From Flavobacterium magnum (lineage in GTDB: Bacteria > Bacteroidota > Bacteroidia > Flavobacteriales > Flavobacteriaceae): a stretch of 64,000 nt of DNA. Each line of letters begins with the position of its first letter. The first letter of the stretch is position 1. The notes beneath the pieces were generated by a model, which was not told the origin of the DNA, searched no databases, and saw only the letters and a list, made by a program, of their open reading frames with translations. The position numbers and the translations under genes are program-made. This document shows, piece after piece, positions 43,248-61,400 of the stretch. The stretch lies in assembly GCF_003055625.1 (NCBI RefSeq), contig NZ_CP028811.1:248001-312000 (forward strand), read 5' to 3'.

Positions 43248-43356
43248 CATGTACTTTAGTGTTTTTGGATAATATTGTAATCTATATTTAAAATTCCGTA
43301 AGCACTCCCATTGCCAGAATTCCAAACTTTGTAAGACATGCTAAAAATTCATGCTT

Positions 43357-44145
43357 ATGAAGGCTTTATGGAAAGGGGGCATCAGCTTCGGCCTGGTCAA
43401 TATTCCGGTTCGGTTATACAGCGGTTCGGTGACGCACCGTATCGACCTGGATATGATCCGGAAAAAAGACCATTGCGCCATTGAGTATGTGCGTGTCTGC
43501 AAAAAAGACGGACAGGAAGTTCCATGGGACCAGATTGAGAAAGGATACCGACGTGATGATGGAGATTATGTGGTAATTGAAAAGGCCGATTTTGCAAAAG
43601 CGATGCCCGAAAAGACCCAGACCATTGACATATTTGAATTCGTTTTAGAGGACGAAATCCCGTCACAATACCTCGAAAAGCCTTACATTATTGAACCCGA
43701 AAAGCAAGCCACCAAAACCTATGCGTTGTTGCGTGCCGCACTGAAAAAATCCGGAAAAGTGGGTTTGGCCAAATTCATCATCCGAAGTGCTGAACACCTC
43801 GGTATCTTAAAAGTTGAAGCCGATGCCATCTTGCTGATACAAATACGTTTTGATCAGGATTTACGCGACCCTTCAGAAGCAAAAATTCCCGGAAACATTA
43901 CCATCCAGAAAAAAGAGCTTGATATGGCGATGACGATTATCGACCAGATGACCGATAAGTTTGAGCCCGAGAAATATAAGGATACTTATAAGGACGAACT
44001 GCTGAAGATGATCAAGAAAAAGCTCGCCGCCCCCAAAGGAAAAAAGTCCGCAAAAAAAGTGCCGGCTGAAACCAAAGCGAAAAAAACCGAGACCGACGAT
44101 TTGCTGTCACAGCTCAAAGCGAGCCTTGAAGCGATGAAAAATTAA
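43357..44145 (+). CDS. ku: Ku protein, NHEJ DNA end binding
   Basis: A 262-residue bacterial Ku that threads onto double-strand-break ends and recruits LigD. Start ATG at 43357 (MKALWKGGISFGLVNIPVRLY), the family's usual N-terminus; an ATG two codons earlier is not needed. The Ku core blocks are YIIEPEKQATKTYALLRAAL, GLAKFIIRSAEHLGIL and FDQDLRDP. The tail after about residue 215 is Lys-rich (KKKLAAPKGKKSAKKVP), as in many Ku proteins that use it for DNA contact. LigD starts 5 bp after the stop, so they form one operon. Confidence 0.96.
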   Translation: MKALWKGGISFGLVNIPVRLYSGSVTHRIDLDMIRKKDHCAIEYVRVCKKDGQEVPWDQIEKGYRRDDGDYVVIEKADFAKAMPEKTQTIDIFEFVLEDEIPSQYLEKPYIIEPEKQATKTYALLRAALKKSGKVGLAKFIIRSAEHLGILKVEADAILLIQIRFDQDLRDPSEAKIPGNITIQKKELDMAMTIIDQMTDKFEPEKYKDTYKDELLKMIKKKLAAPKGKKSAKKVPAETKAKKTETDDLLSQLKASLEAMKN

Positions 44146-44150
44146 TTGTT

Positions 44151-46730
44151 ATGGCACTCGAAAAGTACAACCAGAAACGGGATTTCACTAAAACCAAAGA
44201 GCCGAAAGGAATCAAGAAAGATTCTGATGGTGCCCTGCGGTTTGTCGTGCAGAAACACGCCGCTTCACACCTGCATTATGATTTCAGGCTCGAGATTGAT
44301 GGTGTACTGGTGAGCTGGGCGGTCCCGAAAGGTCCGTCGTCTGACCATGAAGTGAAACGGCTTGCGATGCATGTCGAGGACCATCCAATGGATTATATCG
44401 ACTTTGAAGGCACTATCCCCGAAGGTGAATATGGTGGTGGGACGGTGATGGTCTGGGACATCGGAACTTACCATGCGGAAGGAAACGATGACATTTCGAA
44501 GGACAACCTGACGATGAAAAAACAGTTAAAGCAAAAATCCGTTAAAGTGGTTCTTAACGGCAGCAAGCTCAAAGGGTCTTACCACCTCTTCTCCATCGGC
44601 GCTGACGGAAAGCAATGGCTGCTGATGAAAGGCAATGATCGTTTTGCAGATGGCAAGCCCTTCAATGAACTGTCCATTCTCACAAAAAGGGATTTTGACG
44701 CCATAGCGAAAGGTCATCATGTTTGGGAGCGCACTCAAAAATCGGCCACAAAAAAAATTGTCCCTGTTAAGAAATCAGAGCGTAAGGAAGAAGAAAAAAT
44801 GGACCACTCGGCGCAAGCGGACGGCGCATTTTCAGCGGATGACCTCGCCGAAGCGGTAAAGATCAAGAGCTTCCCTGACGAATGGCGGCCCCAACTTGCC
44901 ACGCTAACCGACGCGGCATTTGACAACGAAGACTGGATTTTCGAGCACAAATATGACGGCTACCGCGCGCTCGTGCAGATTCACAACAAAAAGGCCACGC
45001 TGGTATCGAGAAACGGATTGAAATTTAACTCAAAATACCCGGAAATTGCCAGGACGCTTGACGGCACACCGCAGGATATGATATTGGACGGTGAAATCGT
45101 CGTCGAGGATACCAAGGGAAAGAGCAACTTCCAGTGGTTGCAGCAATATGGCGATTATCCGGAGAAAGGAACGCTGAAGTTCTATGCGTTTGACGTGCTT
45201 TATTTCCAGGGATATGATTTGCGAAATCTCGGACTTTTATTACGCAAGAAAATCCTGAAGGCGATATTGCCCAAAGCAAAAAATATCATTTATTCTGAGC
45301 ACACCACGACCTTGGGAACGAAGGCCTTTGAAAAGGCGGCGAACGAAGGCGGCGAAGGGATTATCGCCAAAAAGTCGGATTCGACCTACCAGACCGATAA
45401 ACGCTCCCGTGACTGGCTTAAGGTCAAGACCAACAAACAGCAGGAAATGGTCATCGGTGGGTTCACCGATCCGCAGGGCGGCAGGAAGGGCATCGGGGCG
45501 CTTCTTTGCGGGTATTACGACGGCAATGATTTGGTATATGCCGGAAAAGTGGGCAGCGGTTTTACCGAACCAATTCTTGAAGACCTTCGGAGAAAGCTAG
45601 ATCGCATAAGCCGTAAAAGCGCGCCATTCTCGACCGTTCCTAAAGAAAAAAATGCGCATTGGGTAAGTCCGAAACTGATCGCCCAACTCAAATTCTCCGA
45701 ATTTACCGATACGGGCAACATGCGGCATCCGGTTTTCCTGGGCCTGCGCGCTGATAAGGATCCGAAAGAGATTAAGATGGAGCAGCCATTAGTTGTCACC
45801 GAAAAAGCCACGCAGAAAGGGTCGCCGGTCACCGCGAAGTCTTCGGCAGCATCAGGCAAAAGCCGCGTAGAATTCAGCAATCTCGATAAGATTTTCTGGC
45901 CTAAGGAAAAAATCACCAAAGGCGATGTGATCGACTATTATAGGTCGGTATCCGAATATATCCTGCCTTATCTGAAAGACCGGCCGCAATCACTGCGCCG
46001 TACCCCGGACGGCATTAAGAGTGAAGGTTTTTTTCAAAAAGACGTAGCCGGAAAAGTCCCGAAATGGGTTAAAACCCGAAAAATAAAATCGGACAGTGCT
46101 GAGGAGAGCGTAGAGTGGCTGATTTGCAATGACGAAGAAACGTTGCTTTTTATGGCCAATTGGGGCTGCATCGAACTCAACCCGTGGAGCAGCCGTGTAG
46201 GCTCTTTGAACAATCCGGATTACATCATTTTCGATCTCGATCCTAAAGGCGCACCCATGAAAAGCATCATCAGGACGGCGCACAAGGTGAAAGAAACGCT
46301 GGATTTATTGAAAGTACCGGCGTACATAAAAACATCAGGCGGCAACGGGCTGCACGTATTCATTCCGGTCCTTCCGAAATACACCTACGAGCAGACCAGG
46401 CAGTTCTCGCATCTGGTAAGCCAGATGGTCCACCGTGATCTGCCGGAAATTACCAGTCTCGAGCGCCTGCCCGCTAAGCGCCAGGGAAAGGTATATCTGG
46501 ATTTTCTTCAAAACGGACGCGGAAAAACGATGGCAAGCATTTACTCACTGCGTCCGAGAGAAGGTGCCGGTGTAAGTACGCCGCTCGATTGGGAGGAAGT
46601 CAACGACGCACTGGACCTGAAGGCTTTTAACATCAAAACCATACCCGAACGGCTGCAGCAGAAGGGCGATTTGTGGGCGCATTTCTTCGACGACGCGATT
46701 GATCTGAAATCCATACTGAATAAAATCTGA
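44151..46730 (+). CDS. ligD: DNA ligase D, NHEJ (PE-ligase-polymerase)
   Basis: An 859-residue, three-domain NHEJ enzyme. The 3'-phosphoesterase is at about residues 30-185 (HAASHLHYDFRLEIDG, WAVPKGPS, EGEYGGGTV). The ATP ligase is at about 240-545: motif I EHKYDGYR with the adenylated Lys at 267, DGEIVVED, EGIIAKKSDSTY and RDWLKVK. The primase-type polymerase is at about 570-855: FWPKEKITKGDV, metal-binding DLDPKG, SGGNGLHVF, LDFLQNGRGKTMASIYS. Domain order PE-LIG-POL differs from the POL-first order of Mycobacterium. A charged linker (about 195-225) separates PE and ligase. Motifs are intact. It is 5 bp after Ku and 30 bp before the flavin protein gene. Confidence 0.97.
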   Translation: MALEKYNQKRDFTKTKEPKGIKKDSDGALRFVVQKHAASHLHYDFRLEIDGVLVSWAVPKGPSSDHEVKRLAMHVEDHPMDYIDFEGTIPEGEYGGGTVMVWDIGTYHAEGNDDISKDNLTMKKQLKQKSVKVVLNGSKLKGSYHLFSIGADGKQWLLMKGNDRFADGKPFNELSILTKRDFDAIAKGHHVWERTQKSATKKIVPVKKSERKEEEKMDHSAQADGAFSADDLAEAVKIKSFPDEWRPQLATLTDAAFDNEDWIFEHKYDGYRALVQIHNKKATLVSRNGLKFNSKYPEIARTLDGTPQDMILDGEIVVEDTKGKSNFQWLQQYGDYPEKGTLKFYAFDVLYFQGYDLRNLGLLLRKKILKAILPKAKNIIYSEHTTTLGTKAFEKAANEGGEGIIAKKSDSTYQTDKRSRDWLKVKTNKQQEMVIGGFTDPQGGRKGIGALLCGYYDGNDLVYAGKVGSGFTEPILEDLRRKLDRISRKSAPFSTVPKEKNAHWVSPKLIAQLKFSEFTDTGNMRHPVFLGLRADKDPKEIKMEQPLVVTEKATQKGSPVTAKSSAASGKSRVEFSNLDKIFWPKEKITKGDVIDYYRSVSEYILPYLKDRPQSLRRTPDGIKSEGFFQKDVAGKVPKWVKTRKIKSDSAEESVEWLICNDEETLLFMANWGCIELNPWSSRVGSLNNPDYIIFDLDPKGAPMKSIIRTAHKVKETLDLLKVPAYIKTSGGNGLHVFIPVLPKYTYEQTRQFSHLVSQMVHRDLPEITSLERLPAKRQGKVYLDFLQNGRGKTMASIYSLRPREGAGVSTPLDWEEVNDALDLKAFNIKTIPERLQQKGDLWAHFFDDAIDLKSILNKI

Positions 46731-47891: not shown

Positions 47892-48350
47892 TTAAGAATT
47901 CTTTTCAAATGTGAGGTAATCCACACCCCCGTTGCCCCCGCTTACGTGTTTCATGCGGAGTTTTGTTGAAGTGCGCTCAAGGATTTCCCAGTCCTCGGTA
48001 AGATCAGTGAAATTATCCGGGGCGTTGAAAATGATATCAAAGTCGATATCCTCGAGGTGGGGATTGTCATCCGTCGCATCCTCGGTGCTTACATTCCAGA
48101 TGCCGGTGTACGTATTTGCACCATTTGAAGCTGTCAGGACATTGTTCGGACCAAACGTAAAATTATAATTTTCAAAATGACTTGTTTCATCTACGTCTCC
48201 GTCCATAAAGTACGTTACACGCCATGCGCCTGAAGTGACAGTGTTGGCGATTTCTGAAGTTGACGTCGTGTTGTTGTCGTCATCGGAACTGCAGGAGATG
48301 GTCCCCATCATCATCGCGGCAGTGACCATAGAATACATTACTTTTTTCAT
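47892..48350 (-). CDS. Lipocalin-like surface lipoprotein
   Basis: A 152-residue lipoprotein (signal AAMMMGTISC, Cys 20) with CSSDDDN at the mature end, matching the Ser/Asp-rich flavobacterial surface-export signal. The body is a small beta sheet: SGAWRVTYFMDGDVDET, NYNFTFGPNNVLTASN, TYTGIWNVS, WEILERTSTKLRMKHVSG, DYLTFEK. The GxWxVxxFxDxGxD start resembles the lipocalin-like folds seen in many flavobacterial lipoproteins. Function unknown. It converges on the NHEJ operon terminator and has no gene upstream on its strand within the next kilobase except two tiny genes. Confidence 0.7.
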   Translation of the reverse strand: MKKVMYSMVTAAMMMGTISCSSDDDNNTTSTSEIANTVTSGAWRVTYFMDGDVDETSHFENYNFTFGPNNVLTASNGANTYTGIWNVSTEDATDDNPHLEDIDFDIIFNAPDNFTDLTEDWEILERTSTKLRMKHVSGGNGGVDYLTFEKNS

Positions 48351-48594
48351 AAATATTTTTTTAGGTTGCTTATGAAAACCAAACGGACAGAAAACGGATA
48401 TGGTATGTCAAATGCCGAAATTGTATGAGATTTAACAACGGCTGAGCGGGTAAACGCCTGGACTAATGAGTCCTGCGCAATTACGAAAGTCACGCTTTAA
48501 CAAACTGATTTTTTTCAGTAGTGAAATGTATTTCCCCTCGTTGAACTGGGATGATACAGGGGCAGCAAGTCGCTTCCACTTGCGCGGAGACAAA
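48351..48594. other. Intergenic stretch without recognised features
   Basis: I read both strands of this gap and find no open frame with a start, no tRNA and no promoter I can support. A 6-bp stem GCAAGT/ACTTGC at 48565-48583 lies here but has no T-run. Confidence 0.5.
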
Positions 48595-48629
48595 TAAAAA
48601 ACAGGTATTCACCGAAATTAAATACCTGT
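48595..48629 (-). terminator. Terminator overlapping the end of tiny gene 1
   Basis: A 9-bp stem ACAGGTATT (48601-48609) with AATACCTGT (48621-48629), tail of Ts on the minus strand (48600-48595). The right arm is the codons ACA-GGT-ATT and the stop TAA (48618-48620) lies in the loop, so ORF and terminator overlap. Confidence 0.8.
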
Positions 48630-48698
48630 CTTGATAAGTCCGAGAAACATCAGGAACTTCCCGACGTTCGTTTCCTTGAAGATAAATTCTTTAAACAT
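48618..48698 (-). CDS. Tiny protein 1, 26 aa, MxKEFIFKETN family
   Basis: Minus-strand frame from ATG 48698 to TAA 48618. It starts MFKEFIFKETNVGK, followed by a hydrophobic half (FLMFLGLIKTGI). A second copy lies 272 bp further along (48970-49068) with the same core: KEFIFKETN, K14 and G20 at identical spacing. Codons for residues 3-11 differ at seven of nine third positions, all synonymous, which shows selection on the protein. It has a -7 box (48725-48732), a 26-nt leader and a terminator (48595-48629), making a compact RNA of about 120-130 nt. I do not recognise the family; membrane-active or signalling peptide are possible. Too short for standard gene finders. Confidence 0.65.
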   Translation of the reverse strand: MFKEFIFKETNVGKFLMFLGLIKTGI

Positions 48699-48724
48699 TG
48701 GCGTTGCTTTTAAAGATTAAGGGG

Positions 48725-48732
48725 CAAATTTA
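48725..48732 (-). promoter_or_regulatory. -7 box of tiny gene 1
   Basis: Minus-strand TAAATTTG matches TAnnTTTG and ends 26 bp before the ATG at 48698. No clear TTG upstream; a 10-bp direct repeat lies there instead. Confidence 0.5.
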
Positions 48733-48734
48733 TA

Positions 48735-48775
48735 ATAACGCAAATACTGCAGGCTGCTGTTAACGATAACGCAAA
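48735..48775. repeat. Direct repeat ATAACGCAAA upstream of tiny gene 1
   Basis: Two exact copies of ATAACGCAAA at 48735-48744 and 48766-48775, 31 bp apart (about three DNA turns), directly upstream of the -7 box. Spacing and position suit an activator binding to the same face of the DNA; this is inference. Confidence 0.5.
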
Positions 48776-48870
48776 ATAAACACTGCTATTATACAATAAT
48801 ACGAACATAAGTTCTTAAAAGTTACGCTTTGGGAATTTATAACAAAAACGCCCATAATTGTCATAAAAAC

Positions 48871-48896
48871 AAAAAACATCCGGGGAAGGATGTTTT
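48871..48896 (-). terminator. Terminator of tiny gene 2
   Basis: A perfect 9-bp stem AAAACATCC (48873-48881) with GGATGTTTT (48888-48896), loop GGGGAA. The minus-strand tail continues TTGTTTTT. It is 73 bp past the stop of tiny gene 2. Confidence 0.75.
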
Positions 48897-48969
48897 CGTT
48901 GGACTGGAGTCATCGTTTTTGGCGTTGAATGTTTCCTTTCCAAATATAAAAAAGTCTAAAATCTCACAG

Positions 48970-49068
48970 CTATTTTTGAAAAGACGGTTTTCTCTTCCTT
49001 TGTCCAAATCCGAAAACGGCAACAAGTTTCAGGATATTGGTTTCTTTAAAAATGAACTCTTTAAGCAT
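48970..49068 (-). CDS. Tiny protein 2, 32 aa, MxKEFIFKETN family
   Basis: Minus-strand frame from ATG 49068 to TAG 48970. It starts MLKEFIFKETNILK, continues hydrophobic (LVAVFGFG) and ends with a basic tail (QRKRKPSFQK) absent from the 26-aa copy. The conserved block shares residues 3-11, K14 and G20 with tiny protein 1, without gaps and nearly all nucleotide changes are synonymous. Its own -7 box TACATTTG (49097-49090) gives a leader of about 21 nt, and a terminator follows at 48871-48896. Not recognised from any family. Basic tail could bind nucleic acid or membrane. Confidence 0.65.
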   Translation of the reverse strand: MLKEFIFKETNILKLVAVFGFGQRKRKPSFQK

Positions 49069-49089
49069 GGTCTTTATTTATTAACAAGA

Positions 49090-49097
49090 CAAATGTA
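49090..49097 (-). promoter_or_regulatory. -7 box of tiny gene 2
   Basis: Minus-strand TACATTTG, the same 8-mer used by both T9SS paralog genes, ending 21 bp before the ATG at 49068; the -33 region is only T-rich. Confidence 0.5.
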
Positions 49098-49357
49098 AAA
49101 CAGCTGTATCGCACGAAAAAAAAATAAAGGTAAACGCGAAATTTCCTGCGGTAGATATTTCAGCCGGTAAAACCGACAGCGGTGTATTGCTTTTTTTGTG
49201 CGGCGAATACGATGTCATCCGGGTCAACATTTTGAATAAATTAATAACACGCAACTTAGCGGCCGCTCATCGTTTTGTTCAAAAGGTTGCATTTATTAGT
49301 ATTTAAACACGACTTCCGAAAACGGGAAATCGTCATCATTACGCAATGTGCGTAAAC
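49098..49357. other. Intergenic stretch without recognised features
   Basis: No credible frame, RNA or repeat found by reading both strands. It lies between the tiny gene 2 promoter and the terminator of the giant gene and is AT-rich. Confidence 0.5.
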
Positions 49358-49386
49358 AAAAAACCTCCTGATTGCTCAGGAGGTTT
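49358..49386 (-). terminator. Terminator of the giant T9SS gene
   Basis: An 11-bp stem AAACCTCCTGA (49361-49371) with TCAGGAGGTTT (49376-49386), loop TTGC, then TTTGTTT on the minus strand; 24 bp past the stop at 49411. Confidence 0.88.
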
Positions 49387-49410
49387 CTTTTATTTAATAT
49401 TCAGTGAAAC

Positions 49411-52400
49411 TTAGTAAGCCACCTTTTTGGTAACTACCTCATTGTCTACAGAAGTGATCTGAACAAGCAGTACCTGCTCTTCTGCCCTAAGGTCGTTCAA
49501 TACGGTCTCAGAGGCATTGATGGCACCGCGCTCATAGATCAGCCTGCCGCGGACGTCGAAGATTTTCACCCCTGACATCACGATCTTACCTGAATTGATG
49601 TGAAGCATGCCCTGGTTTTTGTAAACCACCACGCTGTTCGCATCGAATGTTGGCGTGTCAACCCCAAGCGGTGAAGACTGGTACACCACCTCAAACCTGT
49701 TGGCAAATGTGCCTTCGGCAGAAGCGAAGCTGTAAGCCCCCTGCTTGATGTTGTGTGTCACCCCAAGAAGGTTGTCCTTCAGGTAGATGTTCTGGTCGCC
49801 CGAGAACAATCCGTCTACGTGATCCAGCTCAATGATGTAGGTTCCGGCCGTAGCGGCTGTGAAGCCCATCGGTACCACGTCAGTATCCACGAATGGAAGC
49901 GAACGTGCCTGGATAACATAATTGTCACTGCCGATCAAGGTAGAGATCGATGAACCGCCTTCGATAGACTTACCGTCCATTGCGATATCCTCACCCATGG
50001 TAGCGCCTTCAGCGTAACCTACAAGGATTTGGTTCATCGCATGTCCAGGTGTGTTCAAGTTGAACCACATACGGTGTTTCTCAGCCGTCTGTGCATTTCG
50101 GTAGAAGGCACCGCCTTCAGCCGTCCTCATCGCGTTGGTGAACCTGGCCGTACTTGCTGATGATTTCAGCAGGATGAAGCCCTGGCCTCCGCGGATGGCA
50201 CCTGTTGGTGCAGAACCTCCTGATTGCGCAGCGGTTCCCCCGAAGGTGTTGTAGCTCGCATAGTTCGCTCCTGAGGCAGCAGCCTGGCTGATGTGCGTCC
50301 AGAAGTAAAGCGTACCTGCGTTTCCTGGCTCAGCAAGGAACAGGTCGGCATCAACGGTAGATGGGTAAGGGTTACCGATCATGTTGTAGCCCTGTCCGTT
50401 CACTGTTACAGGGATGGTGTACTCTCCGTTGCGTGGGGTTCCTGTGAAGGTTCCTGTCCATGGGGTAAGCACCGCAGGGTGGTTGTTGGCAGCACGGATC
50501 ATATAACCTTTAGCCGCATCGAACGAAGTCGTTGACGGTGAGGCGATCTGTGAGAAGCCGTTTGAAGACTCATCAAGAGTATAGAAACGCGTGTTTAGCG
50601 TGTTCGGTGAGAACGGCTGTAACAGTTGTCCCGATACCGGTGAAGACCAGTAAACATAATCCTGACGGATCAGGTTCGCTGTCCTCTTATACTTGATGTT
50701 ACCTGTGTTGGCATCATTGCGTGTCTGAACAAGGTCAGATCCATCCTCGAAGGTAATGGTACCTCCATTGACGCTGACTTTTCCGCTTACGTAAGCATCG
50801 AATCCACCAGGGAACGAAACCGTTCCGCTCTGGATCGTCAACGAACAGGCGTTAAGGTCAGCCACCGCAGTGAAGTTACCGTTGATGGTAGCAGCACTTG
50901 TAGAGGTTGGCGCACCGTTGCTCCATCCGCCGGCTACAGTCCATGTGGTCTGGTTACCCGGAGTGATCGTAGCCACGGCAGAGTTGGTCGTGCCACAGCT
51001 TCCGCTTTGGACAACCGCCCTCACGTAAGTGGTAGCGGTGATGTTGCCCACCTGAGCTCCCGTCAATGTAGTGGTCGTGTTGGCAATATCCTGAGGGCTG
51101 GTGAAAGCCAGGTCAGATGATTTCTGCCATTTCACCACACTTCCAACACTTCCTGAAAGCACGATGTCGTCAGGAGTGGAGTTGTAACAAGCCGTTTGGT
51201 TTGATAGAGTACCGCCGTTAACCTGCGGTATAACCGTTACCGCTGCACTTGCCGACGTTGCCGCGCTGCAAAGTCCGCTGGTGACAACCGCCCTGTAGTA
51301 AGTTGTAGCGGCAATATTCTGAGCAGTGTATGTCGAACCGGTAGCTCCTGAAATGTTAGCGAAAACAGTGTTGTCTGTAGACGATTGCCACTGGATAGTT
51401 CCGGTGTTACCATTCAATGTCAGTGTAGTGCTATTCGTTCCGGAACAAACTGAAGTGGCTCCGCTGATAGTTCCTGCAACCGATGTTGGATTGACAGTTA
51501 CTGTCACTCCGTTAGACACCACAGGACAACCGTTAATGCTTGTCGTAAGTGTATATGTAGTAGTAACCGTAGGGTTAACAGTCAGCGATTTTGTCGTACC
51601 GACTACCGTTGTACCGTCAGACCAGGAATAGGTCGCGCTCGGCACCAGGTTTACTGCATATTCTTCGTACTCACCCCAGCCTACAGTCATTGTAGGGCCG
51701 GTGATGCCGCTGGCACCTTCGGTAACAATGATCCTCATTCTGGCAGTACCTGGGTTTACACCTGCAGGAACAACAAATGATCCTGTTTCCGTATGTGCAC
51801 CTGTTGTAGTGGCAGCGGAGGTATAGACGGCCTCCCCGGCATCCGCGAATGAACCGTTCCTGTTGTAGTCGATATAAATTGCCATCGAATGCGCAAATGG
51901 AGAGGTATCCTGCACGCTCGTCATAGAGAAATTGTAAGTCAAACCTCCATTCAGAGTGTACGGTCCAAAAGCAGTATAATTAGCATAACTTCCAGCTGTT
52001 CCTGTAGCCGTTCCAATTGTGCCTACGAGAGAATTTCTCGCAGAAGTATTGTTCAGAATGGTTGTCGCACCCTGCGTAATCGTTACGTTACCCATATCCT
52101 CATCAGTTGTAGGGTTAGTAACGGCAGGAGGCGCAGTATACGTTGGCGAACCGCCTGATAAAGCACCATCCAGCGTCGTCGGGCTTCCGGCACAGATTGT
52201 TGTAGCCGTTGCTGAAGCCACCGAAGTGATTCCCGTGTTTGGAGCATCCTGGTAAGAAGTTCCGCTAAATGTCGTACTCAGTGCCGATGAATTTGTTGCG
52301 GTAACACTCCAGATCACAATACTGTTCGCTGGTGAAGCCGCAGGAATGGTGTAAGACCATATACTGCCTGATGTATTTGTCATCGCAACAGGGCCTGTAG

Positions 52401-55400
52401 CGCTACCGTTGTTGTAAGTGATCGTAACAGCTGTTATTGTTCCTGAAGGCGTCGTTACATCTACAGAAACCGTTCTTGGCGTAGCAGAACACTGTGTAGT
52501 GAGTGCAGGCGAAACTGAATTGAGAGTCACAGCCGGCGCCGGAGACGATCCAGCAAATTCCCAAGCTCCCATATCATACTGTGTTCCTCTTGTAACTCCA
52601 TTGTAATCTACAGTAAAGAAAGCAGATAGATTTGCACCACCGCTTTCAGCCAGGGTGTTGATCGCATCGTTCGGTTTCAAATAGGTTGACGAGTTTCCTG
52701 TCGTGCTGGTGAAGAATGTTGCAGCAGAGAAAGCGGCATCCACGAATGAATTGGCCTCACGTGTTGTTCCTACCGCAGCATAGTAAGTGCTGTAATCCTG
52801 GTAAGCGTTCGTTCCATCAAAGAGGATGGTCCTGTTTGCAGCAGGCGTACCGGCAAAATACATGTTGCGGTTAGAAGTTGTAGCAAAGTTACCCAGTGTA
52901 GCCACAGCACTTCTTCTCAAAGCAGTGACAACCCCGGTAGTACCAGGCGTAGACGTATTGATTACAATGTTATTCTGTAAATCAAGTTTCGCCGTAGTAG
53001 CAGTCGAACTTGCAGCGTGGTAGATACCTGATGTTCCGAAAGCAGCTCCTGTAGAAGAAGCATTCAGGTATACGGTATTGTTATACACGTTGAAGTTGGC
53101 AGTAGCAGCCGTAGCGCTTACAGAGATACCCCTGATGGCGTCAGCATTTGACGCAGCAGGTGTCCTCAGATCACCGATAAGGTTGTTGTACGCATTGGTA
53201 TTTGCTGACGCCGTGGTCGAGGCCATAGCCAATCCGATGATTTGTGCAGCACCTGTGTTTCCAGTGGAAAGATCATAAATCTTATTCCTGAAAATATTAG
53301 CCGTGCCGGCAACTCCCGGGTTAGAGAAGATACCAAATTGGGTAATACCTCCTGAGAATCCATAAATAGTATTTCGGCTAACAGTCACATTAGCGCCATA
53401 ACCGTTACGGATACCATACATGATCACGGTACTGCTCGCCGGAGCGGTGAAGTTGTAGAAGTTGTTTCCTGTACAAACCTTAGTACCTGTGTTAGAGGTA
53501 AGCTGATACCAACCTACCATAGTTTGGGCTCCGGTAGCTGTAGTGCTTAAATTGAAAACGTTATTATTAGTAATCGTCTCATTTTGTGGCGTTCCTACTG
53601 AATACAATCCGTAAAAACCTGAAGTGCTGCCTGCAGCATTGTTCGACAGGTTAGATACGGTATTGCCGTCGATGGTAATCGTCGTTGGAGTACCATATTG
53701 GATACCGTAGAATGTACCTGCTCCAGTCCTGCTTAGAGTGTTAACAGTATTGGAAGTCACATTAGCGGTTGCAGGAGAACCTACAGTCATACCCGTAAAT
53801 GCTCCAGTACCGGCATTGGAGATGTCAGAAATGGTGTTTGAAGCTGCAGTAAGCAAAGTGGTAGCGCCGCTGTTGTTGATACCATTGATGGCAGAACCAC
53901 CGGTACCGTAAGCAGTAACATTCCGCACCGTGTTGGTGCTGATGGTTGTGCTTGAACCGGTAGCCGAAGACCTGATCGCATCAATAAGTGACGCACCTGA
54001 TGTGGTGAATGTCAACGCGCCTGCATTCGTCAGGTTTGTTCCGTTAAAGAATGCACCCGCACGCAGGTTGTTTGCCGTAGCGTTACCCACAATGTTGTTG
54101 CTGACGGTAATTACTCCCGCACCCGCAACGTCGATACCGGTAATCGATCCTGTAAGGGATGCCGTAGTACCTGAGGCATCGATAGCTCCGATCGTATTGT
54201 TCTGGATGGAAACCGTATTGGCTGAAGTAGCATAGATACCCACCACAGCACCCTGGGTAGTCGTGGTCGCAGCGTAAAGCGATCCGGTACCTGTTGTGGC
54301 TCCGATCGTGTTACCTGTAACTGTACCAATATTGGCATTACCGCTGGTTACGTTGATTCCGCATAGGATACCGTTCGTAGTGGTTGCACCACTCGAAGTG
54401 TACAAGGCAATTCCTCCAACCGTATTGTTCTGGATTGAAGAAACCGTCCCTGCAGCAGTAAAAGCCGCGTTGATACCGATGAAACGCGTCGCGTTAGGAG
54501 TTCCTGTCGTAGTGTACGCACTTGGGAAAGTCCCTGTAAGTGCCACTGAGTTACCGACAAGGCTCATGGTACCTGTTCCGGCTGCATTTGCAAAACCGAT
54601 CGTGTTTCCAGTAATTGTGTACCCGGCACCTGCGGCGACGTTAATACCGTGGTGCGTGTTTGCCGTAGTATACAGCCTGGTGGCAGTTTGGTACAATTTA
54701 TTGCCCGAAATCGTCCAGGCCTCACTGTTCGACGCAACAGAAATACCTCTCGTCGCTGAAGCAGCGCTGAAGAAGTTAAAGATGTTGTTGTTCGAAATCG
54801 TGTTATTGTCATTGGTCTTGGCCGCAGTACCCGCAGAATAAATTCCAATTGCCGGAGTAGTTGCGCCGTCCCTGATGTCACAGTTCGCAATCGTATTATT
54901 GTCGTTACCTGTAGTCGCAGTCGTCGTAGAGAACAACACCACTCCTGAAGTAGTCGAAGTGTTCACACCACGGACATCAGCATAACGTACGATGTTGTTA
55001 GAAGCATCGTTAATGAACTGGATCGCAGCACCGGTTGTGTTGGTGTTGCTGATTTGAAGGTCTTTCGTTGTTCCGTTACCTCCTGAGCGACCATCGATAG
55101 TCCAGTAATTTCCTCCGTTAAGGGAGAACGTGGCTACAGGGTTTGCAGAGCTGATTACTTTTCCGGTAACGCCATTGGCCTCACGGATTGTGATAGTATT
55201 CGTAGCACTTGCACCTGTAATCGCAGGCAGATTGATCGGATAGGTTTCTGTAGAAGCATCGTAACCGCTATTCAGCTCGAGGAAAGTAGGCTGCGTAATT
55301 CCACAAGTAACCAAAGCTGCAATGGCAGAAGTAAGGTTATTGTAAGTTCCTGATGGACCTACCGCGATTGTTCCACCGCTTACGACATACAGGCTGACAG

Positions 55401-58400
55401 TATTCGAAGTCAGCGGTGTACATGGCGCTGTACCGCTTACCTGTACACGGAAAGTGTAGCCGGAAAGTGATGCAGGAGATGTGATAGACAACGCGTTCGT
55501 AGTTGCTCCCGAAATGGTAGCTCCTGAAAGGGTACCATCAGTAAGTACAATATCTGAACCGTTGTTTGCAATCCATTGGTAAGCGAGGCCTGCACCTGTA
55601 GCCGTAACACTGAAGTTAGCTGTAGCAGAAGCACAGATCGCCTGGTTTGAAGGCTGGGCTGTAATTGCCACCGACTGGATCACAGTTAATGTCGCAGGAG
55701 CAGATGTCTGGGCGCTGCAAGGAGCTAATCCAGAAACCACCGCACGGTATTGACTTCCGGTAAGGGAAACTGCAGGGGTATTGATTGTATAAGATGCACT
55801 TGTCGCAGCGGATACCGGAGTCCAGTTGGCACCGTTGTCAGTACTCACTTCCCATTGGTAAGTAAGACCTGTACCGGTTGCACCAACAGTAAATGTTACT
55901 GAAGACGCACTTGAACATACCGTTTGAGTCGAAGGATTAGAATTAATCGCCACTACATCGTTAACCGTTAGTGTAGCCACGTTAGAAACAAGGCTGCCTC
56001 CATTGATCACCACCTGGTATTGGTTTCCTGTGTTAGCAGAAGTCAATCCTGATGGGATGCTGTAAGATGACGCTGTTGCAGATGGAATATCGGCAAAAGT
56101 TCCAGCGCTGTTCACCCTATATTGCCACTGATATGACGAAGGCGTACCTCCCGCGGTGCTCACAGAGAACGTGACGCCCGTGTTGCTGCAGATGGTCTGC
56201 GACTGAGGTTGTGCACTAATCGAAATTGTAGTAACCGTCAGGATTGCAGGATCGCTGGTTACAGGAGCACATGGTGCCGTTCCTGAAACCGTTACACGAT
56301 ACTGGTACTGGTTCATCCCGGAAGTAACATTGGTCAAAGCCAAAGTGCTTGTCGTCGCACCAGAGTAAACACCGCCATCAGTAACTGTAGACCAACCTGA
56401 ACCGTTGTTCACTTCCCATACATAAGAAGAAATTCCGGTACCTGTTGCAGTCACTGAGAATGAGGTATTATCAGCAGGCAGGATAGAAACACCCTGAGGC
56501 TGTGCCGTGATAGCAACCGCTTTGTTTACGGTCACAGCAACGGTAGTAGTACTTGTAGTACATCCTGCGCCGGTGACAGTATTGGTCACATTGTAAGTTC
56601 CTTCCAAACTGGCCGCGAGGTCAATCACCCCGGTTGAAGGGTTGATTGAAAGTCCTGCAGGCACTGCCGTGAATGTTCCTGCAGTACCTGTAATAACAGG
56701 CGTAGCAGTCAATGAACTTGAGCAGTAAACAGAAGAACCATAGGTGAATCCAGAGCTTGGATTTTGACCGATAGTGATAAAAGTCGTTGCTGTTTTCATA
56801 CCGCAACTTCCGCCATCCATTGTGTAAGTCACCTGATAAAGACCCGGTGTACTCAATGATGGGTTCACCTCACCTGTTGTCGGGTTAAGGCTCAACGCCA
56901 CATCTGCAGTGTAAGTTCCGCCTGCCGTTCCGGTTCTTGTTACCGGTGCACTGGTTAGCGTATTACAATAAGGGCTGTTGTCATAGTTGATTGTGGCTGA
57001 CGGCGTTGTATCGATAGTCAATACAATAGCTGAACGTGGACTTTCACAACCTGTCGCAGGGTTGACAACGCTTACATACAGAGTAGTCGTTGCACTGATC
57101 GAAGTCGTGTAGTTTGTCGCAGTAGACGATTGCAATGCAGTGCCTCCTGTTGAAGCACTATACCACTTATAGGTTGGGGTTGCAAATCCGTTGGTGTTGG
57201 ATACCGTTGCAGTGGTAACCACACCTGGCCCGCAATTCCCACCATTTACAACAGTCGGCGCATTTGGAGCAGGGTTTACGTTAACCGTTACGTTCTGCGA
57301 TTTGGCACAGCTCGTAACCGGATCTGTAGCGGTCACCGTGTACACTGTCGTTGTCGTTGGCGATGCACTGAAGGTGTTTGAAGTACTTACTTCAGAAACG
57401 CCATCAGACCATGAGTACGTCAGTGATCCGGCGCCTTGTCCGAGTACCTGACCACCGAAAACCATATTCGGCCTGTTGGTAAATGTAGTTATCGCGGTTC
57501 CGTTATTCGTACCGCACAAAGAATTATTGTCGGCATATTTTCCATACACTGAATTGTACGCGGTTGTCGAATAGGCAACGGTTGAATTTCCGCTGAAGCA
57601 AGACGCGCAGGTGTCTGCCACTGAATCGTTATCATGGCAGATATCCACCACGATATTTGACGATCCATCCCAGTTAAATGGTGTGGTAAAAGTCAATGTG
57701 TGGATTCCTACCGCCGGAGCAGGTTTAGAAATCGGGCCATACACCGTCGTGAAACTTCCAGATGGCGTGGCAAAATTTCCTGAAAAGGCAGTGTCTGCGG
57801 TATTCGCAATCTTTACAGTGTAGCCACTTTGTGCAAAAGTACCCACACCCGAAGCCGTAACATTAAATGCCAGAGAAGTAAGATTACCCGCTTTCAGTCC
57901 GCTGGCGGTCAACTCACTGGCCCTTACGATATATTGTACATGTTGTCCTTCATAATTCGAAGTAAACGGTGTGATGGCGTTCGTCGAAGTCGTGGTCACA
58001 TCTGTTCCTATTGATGAAGCAAGACCTGCGGTGATTGTCGGCGTGGTAGCCAAAAGTGTCGTTGCACTTCCTGCGCAGATTGTTGCCGGCGTAGCCGAGA
58101 CAGTCAATACAGGTAAAGCATTTACCGTGATGGTTTTAGTCTGTACGGATGTACAGCCCTGAACCGGGTCGTACGCACTGATGGTGTATACATAAGTTCC
58201 GGCCGCCGTTGGCGTAACCAGGTACGCATCGCTTCCCGAAGCATTTGCAGTCAACGCCACATTTCCTGTCACGCCGCTTCCTGTCGCAGGAGCTGCAGAC
58301 AATGTAAATTGTGTAAAGTTGTTGAAACTTGGTGTGTAACTGCTCGAAATATTGAAGCTGCCGCCCGCGCATACGCTTGATGGCGCGGTAACACTCAAGG

Positions 58401-61400
58401 CATCAGGCGTGGCGACGGTAATTGTCAACGGCGTCCTGGCCCCTTCACATCCCGTAGTCGGGTTTACCACCGCAACATAGAATGTAGTAGTTACTGAAAT
58501 GGCAGAATCATAGCTCAAGCTGGTAGTAGCCTGCAAAGGCGTACCACCTGTAGCCACGTTGTACCATCTGATTACCGGAGTCGTAAATCCGTTTGGATCT
58601 GATACCGATGCACCCGGAACCTGAGTTCCGCATTGTGAGGTATTTGAAACTACAACCGGAGCAGCCGGAGCAGGATTCACATTTACGGTGATGGTCTGCT
58701 CACTGAAACATCCTGTAGTAGTATTTGTTGCCCTTACGGTATACAAAGTAGTTGTTGTTGGAGATACGGAAACGGAGCTTCCTGACAAGTTGCCCGGATT
58801 CCAGGTCCATGTATACGACGACGTTACGTCAGATCCTACCTGCCCTGCAAAGGTTGCCAAAGGCCTGTTTGCGTAAGTGGTTGCGCCGGTGGTTGCAGCA
58901 CAAGCACCCGCAGATCCAAGTAAGTTGTTGTTGCTCACGACTGAAGGTGTCGTAGCCGCCAGTGTAGAAGAACTTCCCGTAGTTGAAATGTTGTAACAAA
59001 TATCAACCAAAACATTTGACGTCCCATCCCAGTTGAATGGTGTGGTGAATGTGTGGGTATTGACACCTGCAACTGCAGTATAGGTAGACGCTGTGTAGCA
59101 GGTCGTAAATCCTGCAGGAGAAAGGAATGACGTTGTCAATGGGGGTGTTGAAGCCACATTGGCCATTCTGATGGTGTAATTGTTTGCGCTTCCTGAACCG
59201 GCAGAGGTTACATTAAAGCTAATAGACGTAATGTTTCCACCGACCAAACCTGCTGCATTTAATTCAGCAGCTGTGTAGATCAGTTGGTGTTTGAAATCGC
59301 CTGTGCCAAAACCGTTCCTGTAAACACCTCCACCAAACTCAGTGGTAGATTGTGTGCCGATTGCTGCAGTTCCAGCAGTAGCAGGAACGCTTTTCGCTGT
59401 CAAAACGGAAGCCGTACCTGGGCAAGCCGCAGCTGAAGGTCCTGTAACGGAAGAAATAAGAGGCAATGCGCCAACGGTTACTGTTACTGTACTCGTCGCC
59501 GTACATACGCCATCTGTACCAATTACGGTGTAGACGTAAGTTCCGGCAATGGTTGGCGTCACTGTCTGAGATGCGCCATTAACCGTACCTGTAATACCGC
59601 TTCCGGTTTGTGGGCTTGCACTCCATGAATAAACATAAGAAGTATTTACACTGCTTGCACCCAATGAGACAGCTGTTCCTGCGCAGGCATTCGCTGTCGC
59701 GCCAGGAGTTACTGTGATAGGATCAGGATTGCTCACAGTTACAGTAACCGGTGTACGGTTGCTCTCGCAGCCCGTAGTCGGATTGGTTACCGAAACATAT
59801 AAAGTAGTTGTCGCTGATATAGCAGTATTGTAGGTATTTGATGTACTGGATTGCAACGCTGTAGCGGTTACATTATCCGCGTACCACTTGATGGTAGGTG
59901 TAGTAAATCCATTTGGATCAGCAACTGAAGCAGTTGGCATCTGAAACCCGCATTGGCTTGAATTGGTCGCCGTAAGCACCAATGGCTTAGGATTGACTGT
60001 TACGTTTACAACCTGCTCGGCAAAGCAACCAGTAGTATTATTCGTCGCCCTAACGGTGTAAGCTGTGGTTGTTAGCGGCGATACCGATACCGATGCACCT
60101 GACAGGTTCCCTGGATTCCAGCTCCATGTATAAGACGCAGTGATATCTGTTGTTTTCTGTCCGCCCAAAGTGACAATCGGCCTGTTGGCTACAGCAGTAC
60201 CCGTTGTGGCACTGCAAGCTGTGGTACTTGAAGCAGAATGTGTATTACCAGCAAAAGCCGGCGTTGAACAGGCTACTGTGGTTGTACCTGTGATGTTATT
60301 TGTCTGGCATGTCTCCACAATAATGTTAGAGGTCCCATCCCAAACAAACGGAGTCGAGAAAGTGTGTGTATTGACTCCGAGGGCCGGTGTGAATGACGCC
60401 TGTGTGAATACCGTTGTAAAGGTCGGCGTTTCGTAGGTAGTGGTCAGCGCTGTAGCACTTGTTGCCGCCATTTTGATAGTCAAGTTAGACACCACCCCGG
60501 TATCAGCGCCCGTTACAGTAAAACCTAGACTGGTAATATTTCCTGCAACGTAACCTGCAGCGGTAAGCTCGGAAGCCCTGTATAACAGTTGCGTCTTGAT
60601 TTGGTTGCCGGTACCGTTTCCTGAACGGTAAGGGTTACCATTATCCCCACCAATCGTGGTAGTTTGCGTGCCAATCGTCCCAACGCCAGCGCCAATTCCA
60701 ATGCTTGTTGCGGTCAATGCAGTTGAACTGCCTTCGCAAATAGTCGGACTTGCCGCCACCGCGGTAGTAATTGCAGGCAGCGGACCTACTGTAACTGTTA
60801 CAGTTTTTGTAGTGGCACAGATACCATCATCTCCTAAAACAGAATACACATACGTTCCTGGCAAGGTTGGCGTAACGGACTGTGACGCGCCGGTAAGCGT
60901 TCCACTCACTCCACTTCCTGTAGCAGGGCTTGCTGTCCAGGTGTAGACGTATCCGGCGTTGATGCTCGATGCGCCTAGTGAAATAGTTTGTCCCGCGCAG
61001 ATGGTAGCCGTTGCTCCGGGAGTCACGGTGATAGGATCCGGAGTGGATACGGTTACGGTAACCGGAGTCCTTGTACTTTCACAACCTGTAGTAGGGTTTA
61101 CAACAGAAACATAGAATGTGGTCGTCGCTGAAATGGCGGTACCATATGTGTTTGAAGTAGTGGCCTGTAACGGCGTGGTAGCCACGTTGGTCGCATACCA
61201 TTTGATGATCGGCGTTGTGAATCCGTTAGGATCTGCAACCGATGCCGTAGGAATATCCAAACCACACTGTGAAGAATTTGTGGCAGTTGGCGCGGTCGGC
61301 GCCGGATTAACAGTCACAGTAACGCTATTTGTAGTTACCGGACAGCCGGATAAGCTAAGGGTGGCTGTGTATGTTGTTGTAGCCGATGGGGAAACAGACA

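Follow-up and report, generated by a model that had tools for sequence, protein, structure and literature searches.

Are the two very short open reading frames (ORFs) flanked on the minus strand by a 4784-codon ORF (49411-63765) and by a small lipoprotein-like one (47892-48350) real protein genes, and, if so, what could their products be doing in the cell? Gene callers readily miss proteins of such a size. Both ORFs, here called copy A and copy B, were found in the window, by which we mean the whole stretch of 64,000 nucleotides that was analysed, part of a single-contig genome (G000; 3,464,207 bases). A first-pass annotation, made from the letters of the window, had placed the two ORFs at coordinates that proved correct in both cases (Table 1), and had aligned their products without gaps as M-x-KEFIFKETN-x-x-K-x5-G, with seven of the nine codons for residues 3-11 differing and every change silent. 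Codon comparison confirmed this alignment and these counts, and a degenerate codon pattern of KEFIFKET was matched at two places in the whole 3.46-Mb genome, which are A and B only.

Table 1 Features of the A/B locus, with positions in the window.
Feature	Position	Strand	Remark
Copy A, tiny gene, 32 aa, MLKEFIFKETNILKLVAVFGFGQRKRKPSFQK	49068-48970	minus	ORF; ortholog in G236, homolog in G307
Copy B, tiny gene, 26 aa, MFKEFIFKETNVGKFLMFLGLIKTGI	48698-48618	minus	ORF; ortholog in G236
-7 box of A, TACATTTG, TAnnTTTG type	49090..49097	minus	same in G236; TACTTTTG at equal spacing in G307
A promoter block, ACCGCA - 15 nt - ACCTTTATTwTTTT - TAnnTTTG	49090..49152	minus	three-genome alignment
Proximal TTTACCGCAG-like box before A, TCTACCGCAG	49146..49155	minus	possible activator site (putative binding)
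Second TTTACCGCAG-like box, TACACCGCTG	49177..49186	minus	31 nt upstream of proximal; TACACCGCAG in G236
Third TTTACCGCAG-like box, TTCGCCGCAC	49198..49207	minus	further 21 nt upstream; perfect TTTACCGCAG in G236
TTTGCGTTATTATAA repeat, proximal, upstream of B	48730..48744	minus	perfect in window and G236
TTTGCGTTAT repeat, distal, upstream of B	48761..48775	minus	31 nt from proximal; 3 mismatches to 15-mer; perfect in G236
Palindrome TATTATTGTATAATA, upstream of B	48787..48801	minus	perfect; identical in G236
Candidate -7 box of B, TAAATTTG	48725..48732	minus	disrupted by a 3-nt gap in G236
Terminator-like hairpin of A	48897-48872	minus	10-bp stem and T run
Terminator-like hairpin of B	48632-48598	minus	stop codon inside; hairpin predicted in G236 too

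Two other genomes of the genus allowed the coding signature and the paralogy proposed in the first-pass annotation to be examined further. The first, G236, carries both copies in the same place and with the same 370-nt spacing as the window, and the second, G307, a Flavobacterium MAG, carries one copy at a different locus, encoding MLKVFIFKETNILKLISFLGFRKFGL. Between the window and G236, copy B shows 11 base changes and ten synonymous codons, with no amino-acid replacement, whereas 6.3 replaced codons are expected under random placement (p 5e-5, which is the floor of 20000 random placements of the same changes). Copy A shows 13 changed codons, nine of them synonymous (one being the stop codon) and four non-synonymous, against 8.8 replacements expected by random placement (p 0.001). 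The same test gave p 0.003 for the first 14 codons of window A and window B and, over 21 codons of the G307 copy, five replaced codons for 9.8 expected in comparison with window A (p 0.001), six for 9.3 with G236 A (p 0.012) and eight for 11.0 with G236 B (p 0.037). Moreover, A and B keep start, frame and stop in the alignment of the window with G236, which none of the 11 other ATG ORFs of at least 18 codons in that alignment does; a partial exception is the 48298(+) ORF opposite the lipoprotein gene, in which the start and most of the reading frame persist but the end does not.

Strong silent divergence between the paralogs is confined to the window: in G236 just two bases separate the nine-codon cores of A and B, and a single base separates those of window A and G236 B. 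Sequence exchange between the two copies is possible. Of 20 random windows matched for dinucleotide composition, 11 held six-residue in-register matches between short ORFs, so that six residues alone would be weak evidence; a match of nine residues, together with its conservation in two other genomes, is by these comparisons not chance. The first-pass annotation had also stated that a lack of homologous peptides in related genomes, or a conserved RNA structure whose homologs carry stop codons or frameshifts, would refute a coding role, and this check, run in part, recovered in-frame, stop-free homologous peptides from G236 and G307. Judged by sequence conservation, A and B are paralogous protein-coding genes and form a real tiny-protein family, given the silent changes, the retention of both ORFs in G236 and the presence in G307 of a copy with a matching promoter. 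The codon comparisons show selection on the encoded peptide across the three genomes.

Exact matches to the KEFIFKETN pattern were found in the window's genome and in G236, two in each, and G307 matched at one mismatch. When up to two mismatches were allowed, the degenerate pattern was matched in 22 of 398 genomes drawn from the genus; a backwards control pattern gave 14 matches, and two-mismatch matches are therefore mostly chance. A profile of the four peptides gave full-length matches only in G000, G236 and G307, with E values of 1.5e-13 to 1.7e-16 (all below 1e-12, for a profile built on the family's own peptides). The family was thus present in 3 of the 398 genomes, a figure that describes a sample of the genus, which has many further species. 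Some profile match at E up to 1 occurred in 206 of the 398, many of them weak and partial. The weak matches examined, at 29 loci, with eight partial matches viewed together with their surroundings, were all judged to be noise; several lay within or opposite longer ORFs. In G204 a stop immediately precedes the match (E 4.6e-5, FIFRETNVLKLL), which also lacks a start, and at L229 the ATG is rightly placed (MIGVFIFKDTNIF...) but faces a 238-codon ORF.

Beyond the genus, a family-wide draw of 397 genomes from 237 genera matched only the window's own genome at E 0.001. Another two draws, of 149 genomes centred on G236 and G307, yielded nothing but the known copies and two weak matches, in G030 and G067, that had been met before. 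A pattern coding for FIFKETN was matched exactly in at least 118 genome-contig stretches and in 50 viral-contig stretches; among the 168 loci listed, the sole family member was L101, which is the G307 copy (JAQSDU010000011.1, Flavobacterium sp. MAG). No match was found by tblastn with copy A as the query against plasmids and phages, and in a profile search of viral contigs 190 stretches fitted a pattern, none being confirmed at E 1e-3. Pfam, NCBIfam and PADLOC each returned zero families for three peptides, the PDB sequences gave no match to the family profile, and no report of a KEFIFKETN family was found in the open-licence PMC literature. Rfam gave five matches in the region; none reached its gathering score, and all were taken as chance. 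Across these searches the family is rare, and new relative to the libraries searched.

The surroundings of the genes bear on whether they might be leader peptides, controlling a downstream gene by attenuation. In the window the lipoprotein gene starts 267 nt downstream of B, with an ortholog equally placed in G236, the stop codon of B lies within its terminator hairpin, and leader-peptide clues have been reported in F. psychrophilum (PMC9723704). However, a downstream gene in the same direction is present for B only, A precedes B and each has its own upstream region, and no run of a single amino acid was seen in the peptides. In G307, the next downstream ORF lies on the opposite strand and is convergent, so that the tiny gene there seems to stand alone and a leader role does not fit. 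We therefore consider leader peptides extremely improbable. Relatives of the lipoprotein were found in 102 of 299 genomes and, among the 30 loci listed (3,563 short ORFs), tiny genes lay near them in the window and G236 only.

Several further features of these neighbourhoods were observed. The 4784-codon ORF is repeat-rich and surface-protein-like, with a counterpart in the corresponding position of G236, and about 130 nt between this gene and the A promoter in the window (49210-49340) are absent from G236. At 43351-46730 lie two adjoining genes which we take to be Ku-like and LigD-like, likely a bacterial end-joining pair, and the pair is also present in G236. In the MAG, two divergent small ORFs and an ORF which is presumably HNH-endonuclease-like adjoin the tiny gene (L036, 7900-9000), and the site may accordingly be a mobile-element neighbourhood. 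A 144-aa neighbour of the G307 copy, which we assume to be DUF6526-like, had no match in G000 or G236, an empty result which carries no weight.

The promoter of A is kept in all three genomes, with 63 columns that align without gaps, 34 of them invariant, and the block includes ACCTTTATT(T/A)TTTT between ACCGCA plus 15 nt and the TAnnTTTG box. In F. psychrophilum, TAnnTTTG promoters are the main class according to PMC9723704. A model of this promoter found one full-length site in each of G000, G236 and G307 and nothing else below E 0.1, the single site per genome being a matter of construction, as the model was built from those sites. In a search of 140 genomes, which used stricter filters and from whose tally G236 and G307 are absent, the best foreign match was partial (E 8.6e-4), and none of the 19 loci examined had a tiny ORF of the KEFIFKETN family downstream. 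One stretch of about 350 nt (G009:C5:311497-311849, L290) holds three partial matches to the model, and a tiny gene of the family was not found downstream of the one match examined there.

Upstream of A, boxes resembling TTTACCGCAG precede the -7 box by 110, 89 and 58 nt in the window and in G236, and by 58 nt only in G307, the steps of 21 and 31 nt corresponding to roughly two and three turns of the DNA helix. The window's own outer two boxes are weak, with three mismatches each, and would be unremarkable if alone. Exact TTTACCGCAG sites numbered 16 in G000, 28 in G236 and 15 in G307, against 10, 7 and 11 for a backwards control, and no clusters within 200 nt were found in the three genomes except before copy A of G236; with no second array, no regulon was found.

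The repeats upstream of B differ from those before A, and the palindrome TATTATTGTATAATA is the only match to its sequence, at up to two mismatches, in the 64-kb window. The first-pass annotation had assigned to each copy its own box and terminator. Both terminators stood, as did the promoter of A, while the candidate box of B, TAAATTTG, is broken in G236, so that its role is doubtful. About 80 nt before the start of B, TATTTTGC is kept in the window and in G236, and we suggest, as a suggestion only, that it resembles the TAnnTTGY promoter class described for F. psychrophilum in PMC9723704. An adenine at -3, a favoured base according to PMC6847099, is present in A and absent in B. No TTG partner 17-23 nt upstream was found for the A box, the B box or the plus-strand box at 48971; in F. 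johnsoniae promoters the -33 element is described as weak (PMC6847099).

The plus-strand box TATTTTTG at 48971, which had been put forward as an antisense promoter of the kind seen in type I toxin-antitoxin loci, is the sole plus-strand TAnnTTTG box in 48250-49450. It reads TATTTTCG in G236 and, not being conserved, was rejected as an antisense promoter; an antitoxin RNA read from another class of promoter, or one acting in trans, could nevertheless exist. This result bears on the possibility that A and B are type I toxin-like, that is, tiny membrane-active proteins which an antisense or trans-acting RNA keeps silent until stress releases them. The products of both genes are under 60 aa (26 and 32), the genes are tandem paralogs with a terminator-like site each, the family has a patchy spread and another locus in G307, and A has a basic tail. 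The RNA of B folds better than shuffles (z -3.36 in the window and -2.31 in G236), largely through the terminator hairpin, whereas that of A is no more structured than shuffles (z 0.13, for a folded stretch that ends inside the terminator). Against such a toxin stand the loss of the proposed antisense box, the lack of a hydrophobic stretch of transmembrane strength and, according to PMC8309996, the description of membrane-associated type I toxins only from Proteobacteria and Firmicutes. We regard the toxin-like alternative as unlikely; it keeps what weight it has mainly through duplication, patchy spread and the different loci.

Four terminator-like sites were found in the region against a shuffle average of 1.0, and a terminator-like sequence was recognised by eye some 30 nt beyond the stop in G307. 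The estimated transcripts would be only about 120 nt for B and 215 nt for A. These lengths would suit small RNAs, dual-function or purely regulatory, whose ORF is of secondary importance, and independent short transcripts of F. psychrophilum are described in PMC9723704 as typically without coding potential. The 3' untranslated part of A (48925-48962) is highly conserved in G236, where TATATTTG at 48948 reads TATAATTG; by eye, it is not common to G307. Moreover, third codon positions vary within the conserved peptide, and the shared segment is therefore not an RNA pairing seed. Small RNAs of this kind seem to us decidedly improbable.

The peptides have a common layout, MxKxFIFKETN..K followed by a hydrophobic stretch, to which A adds a basic tail. 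The proteins are predicted to be a single helix: the AlphaFold2 model of copy A has one helix at residues 2-25 (mean pLDDT 73.4) and a loose tail, from a shallow alignment of four sequences, and a short helix is a generic result. The 19-residue Kyte-Doolittle maximum is 0.94-1.21 in the four peptides, with no stretch of transmembrane strength (the usual membrane-span limit is 1.6), and the helical hydrophobic moment was not above that of shuffles (p 0.15-0.51 at 100 degrees), for which reason an amphipathic helix was rejected. These values lend little help to the membrane-active toxin that the first-pass annotation had listed among the possible roles. The net charges (+6 for A, +2 for B and +4 for the G307 peptide) and the helix predicted for A would also be in keeping with exported or leaderless antimicrobial peptides. 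Nevertheless, no transporter or immunity gene was recognised by eye among the neighbouring ORFs, the peptide of B is identical in the window and G236, unlike an arms-race pattern, and the moment is not significant, making antimicrobial peptides very unlikely.

The reading that we prefer, tentatively and as a possibility short of an even chance, is that A and B are small regulatory proteins which bind a partner, perhaps at the membrane, and are separately controlled. That the peptide acts as a protein is suggested by its conserved core, by the variable third codon positions and by the separate control regions, and the predicted helix, the conserved N-terminal half and the short hydrophobic end fit a small partner-binding regulator, possibly at the membrane. 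Under such a mechanism, activators would bind the upstream repeats of A and of B and, with different repeats before each gene, the two would be expressed in response to different conditions. The invariant N-terminal stretch would bind a cellular partner, and the helix may lie against a membrane protein or the inner membrane, a putative location, and adjust its activity. Against small regulators speak a spread (3 of 398) that is unusually narrow for a core regulator, the lack of a TTTACCGCAG regulon, the unremarkable moment and the weakness of the window's outer A boxes. Distinctly unlikely, in our opinion, is a bolder proposal in which A and B are lineage-specific stress peptides, membrane-active or partner-binding, that answer to two different transcriptional activators, have spread by relocation between loci and would be the first family of type I toxin-like or signalling peptides in Bacteroidota.

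Among small regulatory proteins of the membrane, MgrB, KdpF, AcrZ and SgrT are short and made under condition-specific control, and several of them have a true membrane span. A and B are likewise short; the comparison with these proteins was made by sequence through the family libraries only. Membrane-associated type I toxins (Hok, TisB, Ibs, Fst/Ldr and AapA1) are often duplicated. Like them, A and B are tiny and stand-alone with a predicted helix, and A has a basic end. Unlike them, A and B have neither a helix of transmembrane strength nor a supported antisense RNA, and their host phylum is outside the range described in PMC8309996. Within the same genus, the Rfp RNAs of F. psychrophilum are likewise short units outside annotated genes (PMC9723704); they are described there as typically without coding potential, whereas A and B encode a peptide under selection, a comparison made by description only.

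Comparative sequence analysis thus indicates that two short Flavobacterium units are protein genes with a defined core, and that the promoter of A is kept in three genomes. With this conserved core and promoter, the function of the family would be open to direct tests, in a group about whose small proteome little is known.
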